Below, piece after piece: positions 9,102 through 34,594 of a DNA stretch of 34,594 nt. This DNA comes from Hyphochytrium catenoides (Eukaryota; Sar; Hyphochytriomycetes; Hyphochytriales; Hyphochytriaceae). Under the pieces are notes generated by a model. The model had not been told where the DNA came from. It ran no database searches and was given only the letters and a program-made list of their open reading frames with translations. The stretch is from positions 43,760-78,353 of the forward strand of contig FLMG01003832.1 in the NCBI GenBank assembly GCA_900088475.1, read 5' to 3'. The position numbers were made by a program, and so were the translations under genes. Every line of letters starts with the position of its first letter. Position 1 is the first letter of the stretch.

Positions 9102-9578
9102 TTAGACTCGCCTGATCGTTTCTAGCCTTGCAGGCGGACCAAAGTCACAGCCATCTTGCTGGATCTGTAGGTGGTTGGCCATCTGGCACAGTACGCAGGC
9201 AGGGCAGCACCAGGAGCAACAACAGTCGCCACAGCAGTCCCCATGCAACCCTAGGACCTGGCTTGCTTTTCTTCTTAACAAGCATGTCCAACAACAGCTA
9301 AAGCCCATGAAAATTGAGAGCAGACAGAACAAACTGTTCACAAGGCATCCGCAGTCATCGCAGCATCCATTAGAGCCAATCCTCTCTGAGATCTGGCCGA
9401 AGGTAATGCATGGACAGTACATCACCATACAGCAGTTTTTGCAGTTATCTGTGCATCCACATATTCCTGAGGACCAACCAAGACTCTGATGAACTGGAGC
9501 TGTGCTCATGACATAGACAACGTTCTGGTGGTTGTTGGGGCTTGCGGGCAGGCCGTTCTGAGTAGTGGCAACCTTCAT
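9102..9578 (-). CDS. PLAC8-family cysteine-rich protein
   Basis: A 158-aa protein from ATG to TAA. A short Asn/Gln-rich N-terminus is followed by the full PLAC8 domain (about residues 30-145). Visible hallmarks are WSSGICGCTDNCKNCC, the core CPCITFGQISE, a Cys-rich hydrophobic central segment (about 80-102), the RRK-x-LG-x-GD motif, and the terminal DCCCSWCCPACVLCQM block followed by NHLQIQ. Length and motif order match ordinary PLAC8/FWL/PCR proteins. These are small membrane-associated proteins linked to cell-size control and to divalent-metal or calcium transport in plants and animals. The function in this organism is not shown. An ORF immediately upstream (9590-10008) might be an extra 5' exon; see that entry. 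Confidence 0.9.
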   Translation of the reverse strand: MKVATTQNGLPASPNNHQNVVYVMSTAPVHQSLGWSSGICGCTDNCKNCCMVMYCPCITFGQISERIGSNGCCDDCGCLVNSLFCLLSIFMGFSCCWTCLLRRKASQVLGLHGDCCGDCCCSWCCPACVLCQMANHLQIQQDGCDFGPPARLETIRRV

Positions 9579-9589
9579 CTCTTGCCTCT

Positions 9590-10008
9590 GACGACGGTCC
9601 GGTAGGAGGGCCGGGGCTCTTTATCACTTCTTGGAAGAGAAAGCGAACGGATAATCCAACCAGCAGGACAGCCAATAAATTGATGATCGAGGTCTTCTTT
9701 CTAAGCCAATAGTTCTTCAAAGCAGTGACGTCTGACGCGGTGGAAAGCAGCTGCCGCCCTCGATAGAAAATGAAAAGTAATGCTGGCTCCTTTTTGGGAG
9801 GGTCATACACATTTTGCTCTTCTTGAAGAAGGTCAAATAGCTGGCACCCGGCGGCGGTGCAGTTGGAGAATGATGGTGATGATGAGTACATGCACTCGTA
9901 GAGAGCAAGAAGAAGCATATAGAGGAGTAGGTAGATCGGCCCTCTAACAATGTTATAACTGCTGAAGTAGTAACAATAACATGAACACGACGAAGACAGG
10001 AACGTCAT
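9590..10008 (-). CDS. hypothetical membrane-type ORF upstream of the PLAC8 gene
   Basis: An open frame from an ATG at 10008 runs toward the PLAC8 gene and stays open, in another frame, to 9445. Residues about 24-38 and 110-128 are hydrophobic (candidate TM segments), and the middle is mixed and protein-like (YDPPKKEPALLFIFYRG). It could be an independent protein or a 5' exon of the PLAC8 gene. A GTGATA donor near 9630 and a CGTCGTCAG acceptor just before the PLAC8 ATG would join the frames in phase 0 across 40 nt, shorter than the other introns here. No domain is recognised. Confidence 0.28.
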
Positions 10009-16911: not shown

Positions 16912-17187
16912 CTCTTCTCTCTCATCTCTTTTTCTACATCATAATGAGAGAATTGGTTGGGCTCTGGTTCTGGTGCTCGTCTAGCATCTTCTGCTCGTAG
17001 ATGCGCTGATCCTTCCTCATTCCGACTCTTTCCTAAGAGAGAGCAAGTCCCCCTGCTCTCTTAACTCTCTGCTGTGTGCGTGTCTCTCTCTTCTGTACCG
17101 CCACCGCCGAAAGAAGTTTTTCAAGACTTAGGAAAGAGAAGAGCGAGGAGAAAAAGAAAAGAAGGAGAACGCAAAGGAGAAAAAACA
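16871..17187 (+). promoter_or_regulatory. pyrimidine-rich upstream region of the hydrolase gene
   Basis: (CT)n at 16874-16907, then CT-rich sequence to about 17090, then a purine-rich leader ending AAAAAACA-ATGG at the start codon. No clear TATA box. The regulatory role is inferred from position and from the matching arrangement before the gene at 1826. Confidence 0.3.
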
Positions 17188-19461
17188 ATGGCTTTTCCTC
17201 TTCGAAGGCTCTCTCTTCTCGTCTTTCTCTCTCTCTCTCTCTTCCTCTCGCTCCCTCCGTCGGTACGCTCAGCTATTTCCCTATACGGAAGCGTACGAAG
17301 CGGCCGAGCTCTGCCTGCCGCGGGCCCTCGAAAAGTAGTACCTGTACCGCGTGTAGGAGGAATAGTTCGCAACGGCCAGGTAGCAGTAAAAACTTCCGGG
17401 AACCACATGTCAGCTCCTGACTGGATGACAGTGACAAAGGCGCAAGACTACATGGCAAAGATTGCAGAAGAGGGACCAAACAGAGCGAAGGCCAGCCCTC
17501 TTCTCAATGAGCACAATGAGCAACGCCAGAGCACGAGACAGACGGAAAGAGACACTCCCGTTGCGGTCCCTAGAGACGAAGTAAGACAAGAGATCTCGTC
17601 GGCTAAGGATGTAGACCAGCCGTCTTCGGCAGGGAAAGAGCCTCAAAGCGATCCTCTTCTTGATGATGTCTCACCAGGGAAAGAGAAAGACTCTGTCTCT
17701 CTCCCGCCTCAAGAGAAGGTGGAAGAGACAAGATCTTCTTCTTCTTCTTCTCTCCCCATGTCAGGCGACTCTTCTTCTTCTTCTTCTTCTCTCGTCATTA
17801 GAGGAAGACCTTATCTCACGTACAATGAACTTGTGACGCTTGTGCAAGAAAAACTAGGCGTGACGCTTGGGCGGCGCGGCGGGCTTCTGGGTGCTCTGGA
17901 CGATTTCTTTGCTTCTGCCATGAAAGGCTTTCTTAAGACTGAGACAACGCCATACTTCGGGGCAATGTCAGCTATCAACTTCTTCTCCTATGGCAATGCG
18001 TTGAGTGCGCTGAAGGTCAGGTTCCTGCTTGGCGTGAGGCCAGTAAAGCTGACCTACAACGGCGTGAAGCTCCACGTGCTGGTGCTTGAGAGCAACCAAG
18101 GAGGCAAGCCTCTGCCTGGGCAGGAGGTGGTTGACATGGTCTTGGTCCACGGGTATAACGCTGATGGCTCCACCTTCTTTCCCATCATAGAAAAGCTGCT
18201 GGAGAGCCATCCAGATCCTAATGTTTACTATCGGTTCATCCTCCCTGACAGCGTCGGCCATGGAAGAAGCGCCAAGAACTTTCCTTCCCATCTGCAGCCT
18301 GGAAATGGAGATCTCATCCGGTTTATGGGCGAAGCGCTGGCTCATGTCCTAGAGAAGGTGGACGTGGATGGGAAAGTCATCATCGGCGCGCACTCACTCG
18401 GCGGTGCCAAGCTCCATGAGGCGCTTTGGGCAAAGCCGGCGCTGCTTGAGAAAGTGGCAGGACTCATAGAGTTTGAGACCTTTGGCCATCCAACGCCTGA
18501 GTATTCTTTCGCAGAGTCATTGGAGACAGGCCATGGATTCAACGCGCTAGCGCCGCAGAATAATGAGCAAGCTTGGCTGGCAGCCAACCTGGCCGTGGGC
18601 AAGAACAAGATCAGAGACAGTCATCTGAAGACCATGCTGCCGAACATGGTGCTGCAGAACTTCGTTGAGGCTGCCAATAGGCATAGTCACATCTTGGTAG
18701 ATATCAAAGGCTATCGTAAGAAGATACTACCGGACGGCTCTTCTTCTCTCTCCCGCAGCGCGGAGGAGAGCTCTCCTTTTCCTTCCCTAGAGAAGATGAA
18801 AGCTCTGTATGGGAAAGAAGACGGACCTTTCGTCTTCCTCGTCGAGGGAGAGCATGACAACCTCATCCCTCCCTATGTTGACTTCTATGAGAAGCACTTC
18901 GGCAGCGATCATCCTAACATTGAGTACGTCAAACTCCCAGACACCGGGCATATGCTAAGCCTCGAGAACCCAGAAGGCGCTGCCCATATTCTACATCGCA
19001 GTGTGCAGAGGAAGCTTACCAAGGAAGGAGCAGCATCTCCTTCTTCTGTTACTATCAATGTGAAAGTGGGAGGAGAAAGAGCAGAGCAAATGGGGAGAAA
19101 GCTCTCCTCTCTCTCCAGGTCTTCTTCCTCTCTTCAGTCTGCTGTTGTTGAGAAGAGAAGATTTAGACGGAACATCGCTGCCACGGCTCCGATGGCTGGG
19201 GAAGAACAAGAGTCTTCTTCTTCTCCATCTCTTTCTCTCCTCTTCTCTCCCGAAGGATTCGCCTCTCTCTATGAAGACCCGTTCTCTCCTAAGAACGCGC
19301 CTCGTCTCTCTCTCCTGCTAAAGGTTCAGGAGCATAACCAAGAAAAGGCTCTGGCTCAGCTGGAAGAGAAGGTCCCAGAAGAGAAGAGAGAAAGCTTTAG
19401 ACAGGAGATGAAGGAAGCCATAAAGGTCTCAGAGGACTTTGTGCGCTATTGGGGCGCCTAG
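17188..19461 (+). CDS. secreted or membrane-anchored alpha/beta-hydrolase
   Basis: I place the start at the ATG at 17188 (ACA-ATG-G context) because it is followed at once by a signal peptide (two Arg, then a Leu/Ser/Phe core to about residue 27, small residues before cleavage). Upstream in-frame codons lack ATG. The protein is 757 aa without introns. A polar, Ser-rich stretch (about 70-220, with poly-Ser) precedes the hydrolase core (about 310-600). The core has oxyanion motif HGYN (H321), nucleophile elbow GAHSLGG (S403), acid in EGEHDNLIP (D557) and catalytic His in TGHMLSLENP (H588), so the triad is complete. A serine-rich tail (about 610-757) follows and ends in a charged helix. The substrate (lipid or ester) cannot be told. 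The length is well above a minimal hydrolase because of both Ser-rich flanks. Confidence 0.85.
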   Translation: MAFPLRRLSLLVFLSLSLFLSLPPSVRSAISLYGSVRSGRALPAAGPRKVVPVPRVGGIVRNGQVAVKTSGNHMSAPDWMTVTKAQDYMAKIAEEGPNRAKASPLLNEHNEQRQSTRQTERDTPVAVPRDEVRQEISSAKDVDQPSSAGKEPQSDPLLDDVSPGKEKDSVSLPPQEKVEETRSSSSSSLPMSGDSSSSSSSLVIRGRPYLTYNELVTLVQEKLGVTLGRRGGLLGALDDFFASAMKGFLKTETTPYFGAMSAINFFSYGNALSALKVRFLLGVRPVKLTYNGVKLHVLVLESNQGGKPLPGQEVVDMVLVHGYNADGSTFFPIIEKLLESHPDPNVYYRFILPDSVGHGRSAKNFPSHLQPGNGDLIRFMGEALAHVLEKVDVDGKVIIGAHSLGGAKLHEALWAKPALLEKVAGLIEFETFGHPTPEYSFAESLETGHGFNALAPQNNEQAWLAANLAVGKNKIRDSHLKTMLPNMVLQNFVEAANRHSHILVDIKGYRKKILPDGSSSLSRSAEESSPFPSLEKMKALYGKEDGPFVFLVEGEHDNLIPPYVDFYEKHFGSDHPNIEYVKLPDTGHMLSLENPEGAAHILHRSVQRKLTKEGAASPSSVTINVKVGGERAEQMGRKLSSLSRSSSSLQSAVVEKRRFRRNIAATAPMAGEEQESSSSPSLSLLFSPEGFASLYEDPFSPKNAPRLSLLLKVQEHNQEKALAQLEEKVPEEKRESFRQEMKEAIKVSEDFVRYWGA

Positions 19462-23993: not shown

Positions 23994-25749
23994 GCCTTTA
24001 CATATTACTAATAAGAGGATGGTTTTGTTTCAAGTTCTCTGCCCACTGTTCACTGTCCAGTGTCCATCGAGCAGCAGAAATGCATCAAGCGTGCAGGTGA
24101 TGATATCTGTATGTGGAGAACTCCTTTTCAGCATTATTGGGACTGGAGTGTCACCTTACAGTGAGGAGATCGTACGTAGGAGGAACGTGGAGGACGCTAC
24201 GGACAATCTTCTCGTGCTTTATCTCTCGATAGCGCTTATTGTCCTATCCCAGGAGGAAGGAAGAGTCAGATAGAGTCGGTATCTCACCTTTATTCCCATC
24301 GCAAGCTTGTTTCACTGTTATGATAAGGATAAAGCTATCTCTGCCACCTCCGCGCTGGCGTTGCTGCTACTCGGAGCGAGCCCATTCACCTATTCGGCTA
24401 TCACCTTAATTATCAAGACAAATCTTCTCTCTAGGAATAGTAATGAAGGAGGAAGCAGCTCTAACGAATTGTGACCTCGATGTGACGGACTCTTTCGACA
24501 TCTCTTTCTCGGCTTCTCCGTGCTGAGGGCCGGCGGGCTGCTGATACTTCTGGTGCTGTTTGGGCTGCTGCTGACAGATCTTGTTGCCTTGCTGCCAATC
24601 CCTTTCTCTTCAGTCTTCTGCTGCTACGTAGCGCACTAGGATCTTGCACCTCTGACTGGCCTAACAGTGATCGCAGCTGAGGACGTTTTGCCTCTCTCAT
24701 TATGGATGAGGACTGGCTATCTACCCCGACTCTTTCTCTATTGGTCCGTCGCATCTGTCGGGAAGGCGCATGCTCCTTATTAGTCTTTATTATTGCTTTT
24801 ATAGCTCTTCAATAAAATAAACTCATTAGTCCTGCGTGACATAGTCATGGTCGTATAAAATCTAATAAAACACATTGTGTTGAGTGTTATTTTATTTGTT
24901 AAAATTCATTGAGAGCGACTACTACTACTATAACGAAGACGGAGTAAAAAAGAGAAGAATAAGAGGAAGAAGAGGAGAAAAGGAAAGAGAGGAAGAAGAA
25001 GAAGAAGGGGAAGATCAAATGCATATAATAATAGAAGTTACCTGGTGATATTTTCTATCTACTGTTCAAAGATAGAGAGAGAGAACCAGAAGAAGGGAGG
25101 ATAATTTGGGAGACCTTTGGTGGAGCTACAGAGGAGGTTCACGCCACGTTGCGACATTGGATAAGAGCTGTCTAGTTGAATTCACTGCATTTGGTTCTCA
25201 TACGTTTGGGACTATTCTATATTCGTCCAGTGATTCTTTATAAAAATTAAGGAAGTAAATAAAAATAGTAGGGTACTACTACTATGACTAACTAAAAAAC
25301 AGCACAGGATAGAAAAGAAGGCGAGGTAGAAGACAGAGATGAAGATGAGTTAAAGAGAAGAAGAAAAAGAAGAAGAAGACGATGGAGAAGAAGAGGAAGG
25401 AAAATAGGGAAATGAAGAAGAGGCAAGAGGTACAGATTCCTTGACTCTTCAACACACTCTCTCCTCCACCATCATGATCGGGGAAAAGGGAAGAAGAATC
25501 ATAATAGCTGAACTCTGCGGCAATAACGGTAGGATACGGAGGGGGAGGAGAAGAAGAGGAGGACGGCGTAGTTGACCAGGAATACGCTTCAGAAATTGCA
25601 GCGCATTCTCTCCATGAATAGCGAAAGAGATTCTGGTCTAAACAGAGTAGTTCTAAGCGCTTTTCCTCCAAAGTTAAAAATGAAAAAGGAGCAATTCTGG
25701 AGTGACTAAGGCCTTAGTAGACTACTGTTTAATAAAGTTTTATGTTGGC
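23994..25749. other. stretch without a supported gene; AT-rich and purine-rich repeat pieces
   Basis: Contains AT-rich DNA at 24775-24910 with an imperfect palindrome (AATAAAACACATTGTGTT then GAGTGTTATTTTATT). Two polypurine pieces headed by CTACTACTA (24916-25015 and 25274-25400) belong to a dispersed repeat family. It forms the left flank of the transposon. Confidence 0.4.
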
Positions 25750-25753
25750 TTAA

Positions 25754-25809
25754 GGGTGAGTTCACGAGAAACGTGAAGGTTTGTATGGGCAGTAATGGCA
25801 ATGGACCCA
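25754..25809 (+). repeat. left terminal inverted repeat
   Basis: The outer 24 bp (25754-25777) match the right end with three differences. The match continues more loosely (GCAGTAAT...GG...CCCA) to about 25809. It contains the palindrome TTCACG-AGAAA-CGTGAA at 25761-25777. Confidence 0.9.
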
Positions 25810-26480
25810 GAAGCACATGATTCGAAAGGACTCCAAAGGCAGCTGTATCGAGAATCCCTTGATATATAGTATGTCTTTATTCTTCATTAATGGCTGATAT
25901 TTGCTTACTATTCTACAATATTTTGTGCATGACCCTCCTTTATAAGGGTCGAAGGAGCCTCTTCTTGTCCACTGAAGCACCAAAAACAACCTCCATTCCG
26001 CCCTGCTGCATTCGAGTAAAGAGCCGAGTATCAAAAACTTCAGTTAGATAACTGATATATAACCACTAAAATGTATCAATAATGTAATGATTCTTTGACG
26101 GTTATTGATGGGATCGAGGTGGAAAACCATCACTCATTCCATCACCTTCATCACAGCATCATCACACCCTCGAGTTCTATCATTTTGTGTCATCATTATC
26201 CTCCTCATCATCATCAGGCCAACAACGGCACCACCATCAAATCTCTTCTTGGCCATCCAACCACCCTGTGGGACAACTGGCAAACGAGGCATGAGTCCTA
26301 GACTGCTCGCTCATTATCGTCATAGCGTGATGAATCGATATGCTGCTGCATAGTAGCTGCTAACACTGTCTATTCCGAGAGACAGCAGCACAGACACAAG
26401 TTGTCTACACCGTGTCTTTGCTCGATTATCATCAAACCAGTAACATCCAAATTGTTACGCCCAACGTCTTGCAACGGTAC
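25810..26480. other. left subterminal region of the transposon
   Basis: AT-richer than the flanking DNA, with a CATCAT-rich stretch at 26125-26225 and GTAATGATTCTTTGACGG at 26084. No ATG-started coding frame of note. It presumably holds the transposase promoter, but no clear TATA box is placed near 26495. Confidence 0.4.
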
Positions 26481-26498
26481 ATGGGTGTGATACAATGA
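26481..26498 (+). promoter_or_regulatory. short upstream ORF overlapping the transposase start
   Basis: ATG at 26481 opens a five-codon frame (MGVIQ) whose TGA stop overlaps the transposase ATG in the sequence ATGA at 26495-26498. If transcribed, it could lower translation of the transposase or pass ribosomes on by reinitiation. The function is inference. Confidence 0.3.
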
Positions 26499-29400
26499 GC
26501 TCCTCATCTACTATGTCCTCTGCATCCCCATCATTCATTGTCTATCAGCGCCTGCAGGCGTTTGTCGACAAGAAACCCCATGTGACAATTTCACAATTAG
26601 CCGAAGCAATGAGTCTATCTCGATATACGCTCACCGCCTTTATGAAGTCTCAAGGAGGTAAGTTCTTGTTCCAGTGAAAAAAAGAAACAATAGCCGCAGC
26701 AAAACTGCCTCCTCCTCGTCCACTAATGAAGCTATGTACCCAGTCTCTGCGTATGCTAAGACCCTAACAGCGGTTCAAAAGTTCCTTGATGATCAAGAAG
26801 GAAGTACGAGCACTCAATCGGAACAATACGGTGTAGGTTTCTCCTGTTGGTTCGTCTGATTGTGCATACACAGTAGCATTCCCCTCTTTCCTTTTTATAG
26901 TTCAACCACTCTCTTTCATCATCATTATGACACTTTCAAGCATAATTGGCGTATGTTAGACCCGACCAGCTAGAACTTACGGACCATATGTTGCTAGGGG
27001 CCAGTTCAGGACCTAACTGGTGAACAAGTCCACTCTTACCGATTCCTATCGCGCGAGGAGTATCTTCAGCGAGTTGCAGAAAATAACTTCAATCAGAGGG
27101 ATGAGATAGCTTCACCTGTACCTGTCAGGGTGACTATTTTAACAAGAACACCTCCTAAGACTTCAGGCAGTGACATCAAGCCATGGATTAACAACAGACT
27201 CTGGATGATTGCTCCGCGGGGCCATAACAACGAATCTCTGCAGCTGTATCCAGGACTTGCCGATGTGACAACTATCCGCGGAGGGAAAAGTCACGTTAGG
27301 GATCGATCATTCTACTGGAGGGTGGTTGCTAGGGGATGCTCATACAAAAGCATCTGGGAGGGGCCCTTATTTCAATGTATCGACCTGGAGAAGCCGGCTG
27401 ATGCCATATTTGAAGGCAAATCGCCAACCCAAATGTGGAAGAACGCGGCTGAAGCATATGGAAGACCATGGCAGTTCCAGCATGGTCGCGCTTTGCTGGG
27501 CTTCCTCGATGAGGGGATATGCATTGCTATTAGCGGTGCAGGAGGTGACAAAGAATTAGATGGAGATGACGATGGGGAGCTAAGGCTGCCCATGAGTACA
27601 AGGTTTGGACGACTAAGTCAGCTAAGTATCCGCCGCAAGCGGGACTTGGCAAGACTGATCCACGAAAAACTGCATAGTCTAATGACTGAAATCCATCCAG
27701 ACTCTCCCATAGAAGCTTTTAAGGTGCTCGTCGAGTTCAACAAGTATCGAAAGATATGGCTAGAGGGTGCCATAGGTGAAGAAGCTATATTGGAGTCTCT
27801 TTCAGCCGAAGCTCCTGTTGTGAGCGCGATATGTCAGGCCTTCAAGAATCTGGAGAAGTCTGGGGACCGGCTGCAAATGGGGTCCTTGATAGCTCCATAT
27901 CTGCCTATCTCTGTAGTCTCTAAGCTTTTAGGTGTGGGAGCGACTACCGTCCATAAAATGCGGACCTACGCTAGGCGACACGGAGCCGGAGCTCGGGTGG
28001 CTGCAGAGACGATTAAGCGTGACCGCCTTCAGGGAAGAGACCTCCTGGTCAAAGAGTTCTTGGAGGACCAAGATGTTCTGTACGCAAGCCCCACTCTACG
28101 GGACGGCAAACAGGTCATCTACAAAATGCATAACGATAACGACCTCTATTCACTGTATAGGTCTTATTGCATAGACATTGGCCGGGATGATGAAGTTATC
28201 AAGAAAACGAAGTTTCGTTCTCTCATCAAGAAAATGAAGCTTCGCAAATGGGACCCCAAGTCATGTCTCTGTAATCAGTGTGCACGGTATGGCTTCAAGA
28301 CCTTTGAGGATCTCCGGCAGATTGTGTCCGAGACGTATGAGATTATAGCCTCCTCTGATGAAGCCATACCGGAGGTCGCCAGAGATCGTGATGACGCGTT
28401 AGAGGCCATAAAGGCTGTACAGAACTATTATTGGAATGGTTTCAAGCAAGATCTTCAACTATCTTCCGTAAGTGGACTGCTATGTCTTAGACATGGTCTT
28501 TCTTTGGACGATAAAGTGGATAAGGACGGTCCCTTTTCTCACCGCTGCGATCATGAACACAACTCAAGCACGACGGAAGGGTGAGCAGTTGCATTAATGT
28601 TTGTTTGTGAGATGCCATTAGCTTCACGATGACGGCTTCTCTTATTCATTGTTACTCATTTGCCCCCATCACTGATTCCTTATCCCGCAGATGTGATCTA
28701 AGATCGCAGCTAGAAACGCTTACTTGGAGATTGCTTGGCAAGGCAAAGGAGTTAAGCGAGCGACCGACATCAACAACCCTTAATCGTAGGGTCATAGACA
28801 ATCTGAACGAAAGACTACTGAAGTGTGAGCAAAATCTAGAGTTCTATATTGCCCATCAAGCACGCAAAAGATTCTCTACACTCGTCAAATTAGCAGTGCG
28901 TGATGGTCTTTCTCTGAATCAAGCTGTAGTCATCATCGACCATAAAATGAAGTGGTTGCCACGATGGCATAGAGAGACACAAGCGCAGTACTTCGGGAAG
29001 TCAGGAATCACAATTTTTGGTGCTGTTGTTCTCTACAAGGACGATAGCGGTGAGTGTATGAGTTTGAGTACAACCCTACTTCGTCAGAATCTTACTTTCA
29101 TCATCTCTTGGCTGCTGCTAGGGCACTTCAATCTCATCAATATCCGCGCATTTAGCGACGAGAGCCACCAGGATTGGTCTCAGTCTCTGGTTCTCTTATC
29201 AAGTTGCCTACAGGAGCTATCCATAGCAACTGAGGGAAGAATCACCGAAGTTATTATCCAAAGCGATGGTGCTGGCAATTACTCCGGAACGGGGTTCTTC
29301 CTTGGACTCCCTTCAGCAGCTCCAGCAGGAATGAAGATTATCGGGCATCTGATCACAGAGGCAGGCGGTGGAAAGGATCGGGTAGATCAAGACTTTGCTG

Positions 29401-31109
29401 ACTTGGGAAGACAACTTCTGAAGTTTCTGAATTCGGGTCATGATTTGGTCTCCTCAAAAGATTTATTAGAGGCCGCAAACTTCGAGCTCACAAGGAAAGA
29501 AACTTCAATCAACATTGAAGTCGTCTTGGAGCGTCAAGAAGACACAAAAATTCTCACTCAAGCTGGCATCAAGGACTATTACTGGCGAGAATATTTTAGT
29601 ACCCCGTTAAACAATGAGCGGTCCCACGCTGAAGAAACCAGCAACACTACTAGTGAAGAGGGCGGGGCTGGCCTGGGACAGGTTGAGGCCAGACTCTACA
29701 ATTTCTATGGCATTGGGACCGGAAAGCACCTTGACCGTGCTAGTTTGATGTCGTTGGCTCCAGATGTGTAAGAGCTATCAATAAATCTGGCTGCTTATAG
29801 GAGTAAAGGTGAGAAGATCTTTAATCAAGTGTATGTCTCCTCGCTGGGCTCTATCGCTAAAAGCTGATCACCCGTTATCGTTCTTCTCTTTCGTCCTTTT
29901 GCGTGCGTCTGTCTTCCTTTAAGGTATTAAGGGGCGGGAAGATCGAGCATCCATTTTCAGGCCAGCTCAACAAATGTCCCAGGCGGACAAAGAAGAAGCC
30001 CAACGGAAGAGAGGAGAGAAGCAGAACAAGCGCAGAAAAAGTGGGGTTGGCGATTCTCTCAACCTTAACATCAGGGACAGAATCCGGTAGGATCATCATT
30101 GCCATATACTCTTTAAGTTTTTTATTTTACTCTTGTTGTTTAATGGATATAACCTGTCGTACCTGGGTCATAGAAGAAGCGCAACGACATCAGCACCGAC
30201 ACGAAGTGAGAGCGCTATGGACGAAGAGGGCGAGACAGGTTGTTCAGACCTTTTTGACGGCAGCTATCAAAGTGGCGACGGAGATAATGAGTCCGTATCC
30301 CTTTCTGACCTTGTCCTAACCGCAGAAGAGTTTGATGCTATGGTAGGTCTTATCTTTCTGACTTCGTTGATAGTTAGATGTTAAATTCATTAGTTGATCT
30401 ATCCTTCTTGGCAGCTGAAGGAAGCCGAAGATTTAGAACTAGACGAAGGGGATGACTATTACTACGACAATGAGCTTCAAGAAGGTAACGCAGCAGCACC
30501 CAAAGAAGGCTCCTCATCAGTGAGGCCGGATAACGACGAGGTGAGCCCTTGCGTCATGTTTATGAAGCCTTTTTACCCTATAGTGTCTGACCATCGGAAG
30601 TTATTGTATGGATGCTTTAGACAATAAGCCAGTATTATCGCGTGGGGCTCTATCGGAAGCCTGTTCGCAAAGGAAGCAAACGCTTCACAACAGAACAAGT
30701 CTCTTTTCTATTATCCCAGTACGACGCTCATGGATCTCGCGTCAATGAGCGTCAGGCGCATGAGAGGATGGCTCAGCTCTTCACAATCGAAAATGGTAAG
30801 CAATCCTTACTGCTCACTGAGGCCCAGATCAAGTCTTGGTTCTCCGCCGAGACTGCCCGGAGGAAAAAGAAGCCCACCGCTGCCGTAGGAGGTGAAGGTC
30901 AATATGGGCATACTGAGAGCTCATTGGAAAGGGACCGACTTCCCGATGTGAATGTGCTCGAAGGTGAGACACAACCTGACGAAGTTGATCCTAAAATAAA
31001 TCAAAAGCGCCAGCCTGTGGTGGACAAACCCAGTGCACGGAGACCACCTTTGTGCAAGAAGTGTCGCGCTCCAATGAAGGGTCACAGGCATGGATGTGAG
31101 CCTGCTTAG
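26495..31109 (+). CDS. transposase-like protein, eight exons, ~1269 aa
   Basis: Exons: 26495-26657, 26744-26832, 26998-28580, 28691-29767, 29961-30086, 30174-30342, 30415-30540 and 30633-31109. All introns are GT...AG and keep the frame. Intron 1 could instead be 17 nt (26658-26674), and exon 3 could start at 27010. Regions: HTH-like (18-53); second HTH-like stretch (about 388-415); Cys set C507/C509/C512; Cys/His cluster H599, C601, H603, H605, C613, which spans intron 3; RNase-H-like core with IIDHKMKW (D695), IIQSDGAGNYSG (D804) and GGGKDRVDQD (D841); a Glu/Asp-rich linker; a homeodomain-like module (1127-1191, LLTEAQIKSWFSAETARRKK); and a C-terminal knuckle CKKC-x6-H-x3-C (1252-1266). From memory the order of these blocks matches long uncharacterised proteins common in sponges and cnidarians. 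The catalytic role of the three Asp is inferred from spacing and context. Confidence 0.82.
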
Positions 31110-31290
31110 CGGGAAAGACTTCCTAGCTCATTGTAATATTCAATAAGCACTAGGGTTGTGATAAACCGAAAAGGAGATTATTTGCCCCAACGTCTTCCAT
31201 CCTTTGTTATTTTTGAACGACTGGAGGTAAGCTTAGAGACTCAATAAGCCCAAGCAAGTCAAACAAGGCATATTTATCACCCGGTTGTTA
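31110..31290. other. convergent intergenic region inside the transposon
   Basis: 181 bp between the two stop codons. It contains several ATAAGC or ATAAA-like motifs (for example CAATAAGC near 31142 and TATTTATC near 31271) that could serve as polyadenylation signals on either strand. No coding sequence. Confidence 0.4.
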
Positions 31291-32158
31291 TCAATAAGAT
31301 TGACTTTCTTCTACTCCAGGAGAAGCTTTGGCTCTTAGATATGACGCCAGTATTTTGAACTCCCGTTGTAGGGAGCTCACTCCATGACAGATTGTCTTTA
31401 CTTCCGCAAGCATGAGCGTTTGGAATTCGGTCATGGTATCGGACTTGATGACAGGTCCTGATGGTCGGGAAGTCTTAGCCTCGCCCAAATGCTCTTGTCT
31501 TCCTCGCCTCCGCGATCGGTCACAGTTCGTCACCATCCTCTCCAGATCAGTATCATCGCCACTGCAGTAGATTTGCATTAGACGTCTCAAGCTGCTAGAT
31601 AACCCGGTACTACCATTAGACTGAGCAAGAGAGTCGTTAGCATTCATTGTTTAAGTATGCGGAGTTGGTATAACCACTCAATACCTTGTATTCCTTGGAC
31701 AGATAAGCCCATTTGTTCTTGATAGACTTGACATCCCTGTCCACTTTCGCCCTCTTGCGAAGGGCTTGCTGAAAGCTCTTCCATATCTCAGCCATCTGGA
31801 GATTGCTTAGATCTTGGCTGTCAAATACCCGCTTCCATTCCGTTCTCAGCAGGATTAGAGCTTGCGTATCCTCCTCTGACCAATTGACGCGCTGTCTAGT
31901 CTTCTTCTTTTTGGTGCCTCGTTTAGTCGGCTCTGTGCTTTGGCGTTTTCTCGTGGAAGTTGCCAGATGTGCCTACCATGACAAATAACCGTGTCAAATA
32001 GAATGGAAGTCTGCGGGTTGGCTTGAAGTGTAAGAACTCTATACCTGGTCCTCGTTTCCTACAGGACCTCCAACTGGCTCCGTTTCTAACTGAGCTAACA
32101 GGATGGGTTCAAACCGATAAGCCCGCATATGCTGGTAAGAGAGGTTGCTGCTTAGCAT
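31291..32158 (-). CDS. Myb/SANT-like (trihelix) DNA-binding protein of the transposon, three exons
   Basis: Exons in coding order: 32158-32045 (38 codons), 31972-31685 (96 codons) and 31620-31291 (109 codons plus TGA). The introns, 72 and 64 nt, are GT...AG and both phase 0. The protein is 243 aa. I use the first ATG of the open frame at 32158; an in-frame TAG lies upstream. The N-terminus has AYRFEPIL. A basic run (46-66, with KKKK) resembles a nuclear-localisation signal. Residues 67-133 form a Myb/SANT-like domain (VNWSEEDTQAL..., AEIWKSFQQAL, SIKNKWAYLSKEYK). The C-terminus is an amphipathic helix that could mediate dimerisation. Myb-like partner proteins guide the transposase in Harbinger elements, so a similar accessory role is inferred here. 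It faces the transposase gene tail to tail. Confidence 0.75.
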
Positions 32159-32360
32159 GACGGACTACGAATGGTTTACATACATAGATCTTGACGTTGG
32201 GCTTCAGGCTCTCTATCAGAAGTATCTGACGAGAATGGACTTGATGGCTGAATCGCGTTATTATCTTCTGTCTCTCGTCCTGGTGGTGACTCTTTGTCGC
32301 CGCCATTTTCCTTCGGTACCTGCTTGTCTTTAGGCTTTGGTCGGGGCATGCTGAGGATAG

Positions 32361-32582
32361 GAGCCGGTCCGTGCGACGGTACTTGCAAGGCTAATTATTC
32401 GCTTTTCGTTGGCAAGACAGGTGGCAGCTCAAGCAGTTCAGCAGATTGACGATAAAAGCGATCAGAGGCTTCATGCAATCGCCTTTCTGCCTCCGCCTAC
32501 CGCCAACAAGATCCACCGCTTTTACAAAAAGTTCCTACTGTACGATACAATCCGCTACATCACCATCGACTGGTGTACATAG
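32361..32582 (+). CDS. small ORF fragment within the transposon
   Basis: A 73-codon open frame without ATG, ending TAG. The later part reads like protein (QQIDDKSDQRLHAIAFL, then KIHRFYKKFLLYDTIRYI). An acceptor-like GGCAAGACAG precedes GTGGCAGC at 32421, so it might be the last exon of a third gene. It runs into the tandem array at its 3' end. On the opposite strand an ATG frame of 70 codons (32388-32176) overlaps and could be leader sequence of the Myb-like gene. No family is recognised. Confidence 0.28.
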   Translation, partial: EPVRATVLARLIIRFSLARQVAAQAVQQIDDKSDQRLHAIAFLPPPTANKIHRFYKKFLLYDTIRYITIDWCT

Positions 32583-33300
32583 GCATAGAGTGTTACGCCT
32601 ATAGCTGACTGGGAGACCCTGTGCTTCCCTATAAGACTCTACAGCAGTCCATACTCCTGTTCCGAAGCAAAATTCTACCCTCTCGACTGGATCAACCATA
32701 GACATAGCGTGGTAGCGTAAAGCTGACTGGAGGTTATTGTGCTTTGATTTAGGACCCTATAGTCAAGCAAGTTCTCTTGTTTAGTCGGCCTACCCTCTCG
32801 ACTGGATCAACCATAGGTATAAGGTGGTAGCGTAAGCTGACTGGAGGTTATTGTGCTTTGATATAGGACCCTATAGTCAAGCAAGTTCTCTTATTTAGCC
32901 TGGCCTACCCTCTCGACTGGATCAACCATAGACATAGCGTGGTAGCGTAAAGCTGACTGGAGGTTATACTGCTTTGATATAGGACCCTATAGTCAAGCAA
33001 GTTCTCTTGTTTAGCCGGCCTACCCTCTCGACTGGATCAACCATAGCCATAGCGTGGTAGCGTAAAGCTGACTGGAGGTTATACAGTTTTGATATAGGAC
33101 CCTATAGTCAAGCAAGTTCTCTTGTTTGGTCGGCCTACCCTCTCGACTGGATCAACCATAGACATAGCGTGGTAACGTAAAGCTGACTGGAGGCTCTAGA
33201 CTGTAACATGCTTGTTCTCCTATCGTACTGTACGACATACAGCGTGTTACATCGACTGGATAGATTATGGGGGTACACTGTAATACTGAAGCTGACTAAA
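32564..33300. repeat. 115-bp tandem repeat array, right subterminal
   Basis: TACCCTCTCGACTGGATCAA occurs at 32676, 32791, 32906, 33021 and 33136, exactly 115 bp apart each time, with compensating small indels. Each unit has two GACTGG motifs about 40 bp apart (TCTCGACTGGATC and AGCTGACTGGAGG). More diverged copies continue on both sides (GACTGG at 32568 and 32607; CGACTGGATAG at about 33253). Nothing like it exists at the left end. Confidence 0.92.
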
Positions 33301-33596
33301 ACATGACCTTGCTTACACCCTGTACCATAATGAGGTGCCACATTATCGACCCGAGTAGGATGACTCGAGTAGTGCTCGAGGAAGCAGCCCCTCTTCAGAC
33401 GAAATTGAGCACGGAATTTGGAAATGAGAGAATCCCTAACGGTCAAATTCTGACCCATGGACATGGGTGGGCGAGCAATAATCACCACAAGGCTTTGCCA
33501 CTCCATTAGGGATAATGACCCCGTCGAACCTCCCATATCAAAAGCTATACAAACTCTGCACACGAGATTTGGGTTCTACAAACAGTAAATGTTAGA
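33301..33596. other. right subterminal region with short palindromes
   Basis: Contains CTCGAG-TAGTG-CTCGAG (about 33364-33380), CCCATGGACATGGG (about 33453) and the inverted pair ATCCCTAA (33432) and TTAGGGAT (33506). Open frames here lack coding features. Confidence 0.5.
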
Positions 33597-33650
33597 AAGT
33601 GGGCACCAAATTACTGCAAAATTTTGTTCGCGTTTCTCGCGAACTCGCCC
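33597..33650 (-). repeat. right terminal inverted repeat
   Basis: Reverse complement of the left end. The 24-bp core is 33627-33650, with palindrome TTCGCG-TTTCT-CGCGAA at 33627-33643. Looser similarity extends inward to about 33597. Confidence 0.9.
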
Positions 33651-33654
33651 TTAA

Positions 33655-33840
33655 TAGAACTACTACTAGTCAGACGAAGCTGGAGAAGAAGAAGAAAAAG
33701 GATCAGGGAGACAGACATAGGAGACAATAATGATGAAGATTAGGAAAAAGAAGAAGGAAGAGTTGCCAAGAGCTACAAAGCCTTGGATTCTTCTTCTTCA
33801 GCTCTAGTTCCACTGTTTATGGTTCTGCATAGAGTTCCAG
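33655..33840. repeat. polypurine dispersed-repeat piece at the right flank
   Basis: CTACTACTA is followed by an AAG/GAA-rich tract and then CCAAGAGCTACAAAGCC. The same order is seen, diverged, at 25274-25450 and in part at 11790-11920. Confidence 0.45.
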
Positions 33841-34562
33841 CTAGGCCGATATTCTTATGTTGAACCATCACCAAGTCGCTGAGGGATACGCCTAAGAAGT
33901 ATCACCAAACCGTAAACAGTCTCCCTCTGCAGTTTTGGTACTAGAAGCAGGAGAAATGAAGACCGCTGCTGACCTGTATCTACGAGAGCATATAACCTCC
34001 TGTTGAATCTCATAAGGTGAATGAGTGTCTCCCAGCCTTGAACTGTCTTCTCTCACAGTTCTCGACCAGAAAGCAGGACAAATGCGCGCTTCTTGTAGCT
34101 GCTGTCGGTCTGTATCTATGAACAAGTAGTTCTACTGTCAATGTGGAGGCTCTGCATAGAGTTCAGCTCGGTCAATATTCTATGGCGGCCATCACACTGT
34201 TGGGGAGGGACACGCCTAAGAAGTATCACCAAACCATAAACTGTCTCCCTCGGCAGTTCTTGTAACAAAGCGGGAGAAACAAAGACGGCTGTTGGACTGA
34301 ATGAGCATGGTTCTACTACTGTTAGTTTGGAGGCTTTGAAGAGTCAGATAGGCCCACAACCTCATGGTTGGACAACAAAGAGGGGATGATGAGTTCTCGC
34401 AGCCATGAACTGCCCTTGCTTTATAGACTTCACTCGTCTCTGGAGGCAGGAGAAATGAGCGCTACTTGTAGCTTTTGGTCCGTCTCTAATAAGAATAATA
34501 ATATGCTAGACCAAATGTCACATGTTGAGGATCAAACTTTTCTCCCACGTTCTTTCATCTGA
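33841..34562. repeat. nested tandem repeat, ~324-bp higher-order unit
   Basis: ACGCCTAAGAAGTATCACCA occurs at 33888 and 34212. The sequence between includes diverged sub-copies with CTGTCT(T/C)C...CAGTT, GCAGGA(G/C)AAATG and GGTC(T/C)GT(A/C)TCT motifs, so units of roughly 125-200 bp are nested in the 324-bp period. No gene is supported. Confidence 0.6.
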
Positions 34563-34594
34563 CTCTTTGTGGTTGTTCTTTTACTTTGGTCTTA

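Follow-up and report, generated by a model that had tools for sequence, protein, structure and literature searches.

Do the 7.9 kb between two TTAA tetranucleotides on contig FLMG01003832.1 of Hyphochytrium catenoides make up one complete transposon, and if so, to which superfamily would it belong? The original prediction, made from the letters alone, proposed that a whole transposon lies between TTAA sites, that a Myb-like gene is its partner and that the superfamily is possibly new. The window analysed here is the whole stretch of 34,594 nt (C624:43760-78353), and the genome that was searched comprises 42.5 Mb in 1105 contigs. Our data suggest that the locus is very probably an autonomous cut-and-paste DNA transposon of ∼7.9 kb, whose insertion duplicated a TTAA target and whose gene 1 encodes a DDD transposase. 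The element looks genuine and little described, and it may belong to the named group Sola. Boundaries, terminal inverted repeats (TIRs), open gene models, conserved triad, predicted fold, further ends, a broken relative and an excess of third-position differences were all computed directly; we infer the chemistry, the binding at the palindromes, the role of the Myb protein and any remaining mobility of this copy.

The ends of the element are as follows.

25750-25753, no strand: left TTAA target-site copy, from the paired-TTAA test
25754-25777, + strand: left TIR, 24 bp, with the palindrome TTCACG-AGAAA-CGTGAA; supported by a homologous left end on C1088
33627-33650, − strand: right TIR, 24 bp, with the palindrome TTCGCG-AGAAA-CGCGAA; supported by a homologous right end on C772
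33651-33654, no strand: right TTAA target-site copy, from the paired-TTAA test

Thus TTAA stands at both ends and matching inverted repeats directly abut it, as had been predicted. The two TIRs are identical at 21 of 24 positions, all three differences are transitions, and the element ends start with GGG(T/C)G, i.e. GGG...CCC. The window contains 741 TTAA pairs spaced 0.5-15 kb; the pair at the element ends differs at 3 of 24 positions and the runner-up at 10, and across 200 simulated first-order Markov windows no pair had fewer than 7 mismatches. Each TIR contains a 6-bp palindrome flanking AGAAA; left and right differ at one base pair of it, which is changed on both sides, and thus the symmetry has been kept. 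As single strands the TIRs fold into hairpins (z = −4.2 for the left and −2.8 for the right, with 0/200 and 2/200 equally good shuffles), and in double-stranded DNA the palindrome would most simply be a dimer binding site.

Searching the genome for the 24-bp TIR with up to three mismatches returned four places, namely both ends of the element, C772 and C1088, and the control pattern read backwards had no match. C772 carries a right-type end with a perfect palindrome, which matches inward over tens of bases and ends in TTAG. C1088 carries a left-type end, in which similarity extends ∼20 bp inward of the TIR and which ends in ATAA (61 bases read); its palindrome has the G-C pair present and one pair broken, and its inward stretch has no further genome copy at three mismatches. 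For the right inward pattern there is a single additional match, with one mismatch (C17:2638-2662, − strand), around which no TIR was found within the 57 bases read outward, and which is perhaps a truncated copy. The 14-mer TTAAGGGYGAGTTC occurs at both element ends and once more, on C353; this last match was not counted as a copy because ∼0.6 chance matches are expected for uniform base composition and we found no partner for it. One more trace of the right end was found by genome search.

33340-33454, no strand: right subterminal stretch, of which C978 keeps a 79% copy, a relic at which no element end was found

The element lies within a dispersed repeat, of which its left flank is part. With the joined flanks as a 644-base query, 63 matching pieces were found in the genome, three of them in C624 itself. 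The flanks at 25430-25750 and 33655-34594 were assigned to this dispersed, diverged repeat, sequences similar to AAGAGCTACAAAGCCTTGG of the flank are also present on C651, C950 and C648, and part of the right flank is repeated within that flank at 77%.

Between the ends lie two convergent multi-exon genes, gene 1 (+) and gene 2 (−), which stay open through 8 and 3 introns, in agreement with the original prediction.

26495-31109 (stop included), + strand: gene 1, transposase model of 1249 amino acids, supported by the open frame through 8 introns and by homologues
26495-26657, 26744-26832, 26998-28580, 28691-29049, 29122-29767, 29961-30086, 30174-30342, 30415-30540 and 30621-31109, + strand: exons of gene 1 (splice model)
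29050-29121, + strand: intron 4 of gene 1, in frame and inside the core (splice model)
28692-29768, + strand: catalytic core of gene 1 with the DDD triad D695, D780 and D820 (alignments and structure models)
30669-31097, + strand: C-terminal part of gene 1, a weak homeodomain-like helix-turn-helix (Pfam) and a CxxC...H...C motif (by eye)

All 8 introns of gene 1 are of the GT-AG type, and its last frame runs to 31109. The homologue P0030 agrees with the model at the start of exon 5, where its alignment begins with its first eight residues left out, and the in-frame intron 4 (approximately residues 120-144) coincides with a predicted local distance difference test (pLDDT) score below 50 at residues 121-144 in the model of the unspliced reading. 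A broken relative on C810 codes for the gene 1 protein in pieces, at 36-73% identity with shifting frames and stops. Differences between the window and C810 by codon position are 0.34, 0.27 and 0.60 (719 codons, a few counted twice), and this third-position excess is a sign of selection for the protein. At E values up to 1, Pfam gives four matches for the full-length gene 1 protein; none of them reaches its cut-off, and none is a Harbinger-type family. A C-terminal piece of 77 amino acids matches the Pfam Homeodomain at E = 0.004 (17.4 bits, below the cut-off of 22.9), and the zinc-type CxxC...H...C motif lies in the same part, in the frame 29961-31109.

Relatives of gene 1 were reached through a distant, intact single-exon relative in the same genome (C66; 1055 amino acids, L036:6128-9292), which is DDD transposase-like. 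A search with the C66 protein retrieved 29 proteins (P0001-P0029) that are 30-56% identical, and in BLASTP within this small set gene 1 matched 28 of the 29 at E ≤ 3e-4 (best 9e-18) and the remaining one at E = 0.02. A profile search with gene 1 and seven of these proteins then gave two close relatives, P0030 (47% identical to gene 1 over 225 positions) and P0031 (45% over 187), mostly in exon 5. The organism names among the 31 retrieved homologues are those of the oomycete Phytophthora lilii and the labyrinthulid Mucochytrium quahogii; two homologues are annotated literally ‘unnamed’ or ‘uncharacterized’, and the listings of the 31 give no precomputed Pfam domain or transposase name. The transposase may also resemble proteins of sponges and cnidarians, as proposed in the original prediction. 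In alignment A1, which holds gene 1 residues 575-1194 and seven relatives, the best matches of the eight trimmed members were E = 0.0067 in Pfam and E = 0.0089 in NCBIfam, each in one member. P0001-P0029, C66 and C146 have the core blocks D..KMK, QD, QSDNA..Y and GK...DAHFA in common with gene 1, and the predicted core of the P0001-P0029 family is of the same type. This family differs from gene 1 in being only ∼20-25% identical across the core; C66 is a single exon, and the C-terminal domains stand in the same place without a significant match (hhalign probability 0.24 on a scale of 0-100). More pieces of the C66 family are found on C146 (a frame of 537 amino acids), C105 and C974, and no TIR was found around C66 or C146.

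Aligning the 29 proteins with gene 1, C66 and C146 places an aspartate at D695 in 30 of 32 rows, at D780 in 30 and at D820 in 31, and K816 is kept in 30 rows. Since E811 is kept in only 26, the third catalytic residue was taken as D820; in A1 all three aspartates are invariant. The triad corresponds to residues 83, 192 and 232 of the contiguous, unspliced reading of 28692-29768, and the 39 residues between D780 and D820 contain no cysteine and no C/DxxH. According to the predicted models, the gene 1 core has the RNase H-like fold of retroviral integrases, without a large insertion between the second and third aspartates; the order of strands and helices matches, and strand 1, strand 4 and the final helix carry the acidic triad. 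The strong integrase match of this predicted core comes from a second-look structure aligner.

The right part of the element holds the partner gene and a tandem array.

31291-32349, − strand: gene 2, Myb/SANT-like protein model of 296 amino acids, open through 3 introns (Pfam)
32349-32180, 32147-32045, 31972-31685 and 31620-31291, − strand: exons of gene 2 (splice model)
32675-33193, no strand: tandem array of a 115-bp unit, 4.5 copies with 93% matches (Tandem Repeats Finder, TRF)

Gene 2 matches Pfam Myb_DNA-bind_4 at E = 2.4e-9 (37.9 bits against a cut-off of 27), and together with the boundaries and TIRs this match bears out the proposed whole transposon between TTAA sites and its Myb-like partner. 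Its first intron, of 32 nt, is doubtful. The array sits inside the element between gene 2 and the right TIR, and so the tandem array that had been predicted on one side is confirmed.

These features can be combined into a conditional scheme of transposition. The gene 1 protein, as a dimer or higher multimer, would bind the palindrome of each 24-bp TIR, its DDD site with metal ions would cut at the TTAA boundary, and the freed ends would be joined to a new TTAA. Myb/SANT proteins act as partners of the transposase in some PIF/Harbinger elements, and by analogy the gene 2 protein would most likely be an accessory factor that binds element DNA.

Several results weigh against a mobile element of this kind. 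In the genome search neither another full-length copy bounded by both ends nor a second gene 2 outside the element locus was found, and no TIR was found around C810, where the contig leaves ∼3.5 kb on that side. Of the predicted further copies, only ends were found, on C772 and C1088. The expected empty site with a single TTAA was not obtained either: C651:5056-5229 aligns across the flank junction at 70% with the element absent, its junction bases are not TTAA, and it may be called a paralogous empty site in a loose sense only, the genome holding no allelic empty site and none with a single intact TTAA that we could find. A protein search with gene 1 residues 380-1000 gave no homologue at E = 0.01 among the 8000 best candidates scored. 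Foldseek against the PDB with the predicted core gave nothing at E < 0.001; its best matches were Argonaute/SPARTA chains (2.3e-3), the first integrase stood at rank 12 (2.4e-2) and Mos1 had 3.9e-2. For both genes, the putative splice models were derived from consensus sites and homology. Alternatively, the locus might be immobile, either two host genes caught by chance between TTAA repeats or a transposase that has been domesticated, and the single full copy, the kept open reading frames and the low copy number would agree with this; TIRs that are exact to the TTAA, further ends elsewhere, the broken relative and the insertion inside a dispersed repeat argue against such an immobile locus, which we consider very unlikely.

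Taking the locus as a transposon, the duplicated TTAA by itself would fit piggyBac. The piggyBac transposase is an RNase H-like DDD enzyme with an insertion domain, whereas gene 1 has 39 residues between its second and third aspartates and no insertion domain in the predicted model. PF13843 is absent from the families listed for gene 1, while the same profile works elsewhere in this genome and exceeds the Pfam cut-off at C996:57832-58851 and C1030:50247-50501, so that piggyBac elements or relics are present there, as judged from these matches. Moreover, piggyBac ends carry CC[C/T]T in passages of PMC2872659, and the element starts with the opposite bases, GGG. Failing on both tested features, profile and terminal motif, a piggyBac-like element is hardly conceivable, and the transposase indeed lacks the piggyBac look, as predicted. 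For Kolobok, passages of PMC9587614 describe a TTAA duplication, 5′-RR...YY-3′ termini (here GGG...CCC) and often a second protein. The same passages give C/DxxH between the second and third catalytic residues as a signature, and a zinc finger there in almost all lineages; gene 1 has neither. Kolobok thus fails on its signature motif, and its accessory proteins KolX, RecQ and nucleases (passages of PMC9587614) were not recognised in the element. The transposase is therefore not a typical Kolobok one, which had also been claimed, and a very divergent Kolobok is improbable. The pairing of a transposase with a Myb/SANT protein is that of the Nuwa lineage of PIF/Harbinger, in which the target duplication is 0, 2 or 3 bp, with 3 bp canonical (passages of PMC12730594), unlike the 4-bp TTAA here.

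Two readings then carry most of the discussion. One places the element in the named superfamily Sola (probably Sola3), so far undescribed in this host, and we give it an even chance of being right. Sola3 probably prefers TTAA and occurs in cnidarians. Sola elements have a DDD transposase, a 4-bp target duplication, a length of mostly 2-9 kb and TIRs of 11-1124 bp, in hosts that include bacteria and metazoans (passages of PMC10741241), and the DDD triad, TTAA, 7.9 kb and 24-bp TIRs of the element lie within these published ranges. This likeness is one of published general features and not of sequence, a Myb/SANT second gene is absent from the Sola passages of PMC10741241, and a target AT is tabulated for a moth Sola (passages of PMC5704228). 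The passages of PMC10741241, PMC4455052, PMC5199201, PMC10294476, PMC5753468, PMC8634313, PMC4735498, PMC2872659 and PMC5704228 do not state TTAA for Sola3. The other reading, an undescribed superfamily defined by TTAA, an integrase-like DDD transposase and a Myb/SANT partner, is possible and on balance doubtful. For it speak the lack of a strong Pfam or NCBIfam match in gene 1 and the A1 members, the 31 homologues listed without domain or transposase name, and a gene 1 that is not piggyBac and bears no Kolobok signature; against it, the Myb partner is seen in one copy only and the relatives C66 and C146 have no TIR that was found. To our knowledge, Sola, Novosib, Academ, IS3EU and others have no model in the profile libraries searched, and because of this the silence of Pfam and NCBIfam says little. 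The proposed new superfamily stays a candidate; Sola fits by its published general features (passages of PMC10741241). Among the matches listed (titles and abstract openings, most subscription papers lying outside the scope) we found no publication on this transposase.

In the rest of the window, positions 1-25700 are crowded with CT/AG simple repeats (TRF gives 59 rows for the window as a whole); these yield long Leu-Ser frames that can mislead gene finders. Two further frames were noted by eye only, a cysteine-rich one that looks PLAC8-like at 9102-9620 (−) and one of 798 amino acids with an alpha/beta-hydrolase look at 17065-19461 (+).

TTAA targeting and clean excision are the reason why piggyBac serves as a laboratory tool. 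If a second, unrelated enzyme with a much more compact, integrase-like core also chose TTAA, it would reveal which components determine the target. Genes of this transposase lineage are probably filed as host ‘hypothetical proteins’, since they turn up in several sources and no Pfam model matched them. If the element is Sola3, the smaller gain would be a structural model of a Sola-type core together with a Myb partner. Tentatively, it may instead represent an unnamed TTAA-targeting superfamily, with a compact integrase-like DDD transposase with a homeodomain-like end, TIR palindromes, a Myb/SANT partner, and relatives in an oomycete, a labyrinthulid and many further sources; if so, TTAA targeting would have arisen independently once more, in addition to piggyBac and Kolobok.

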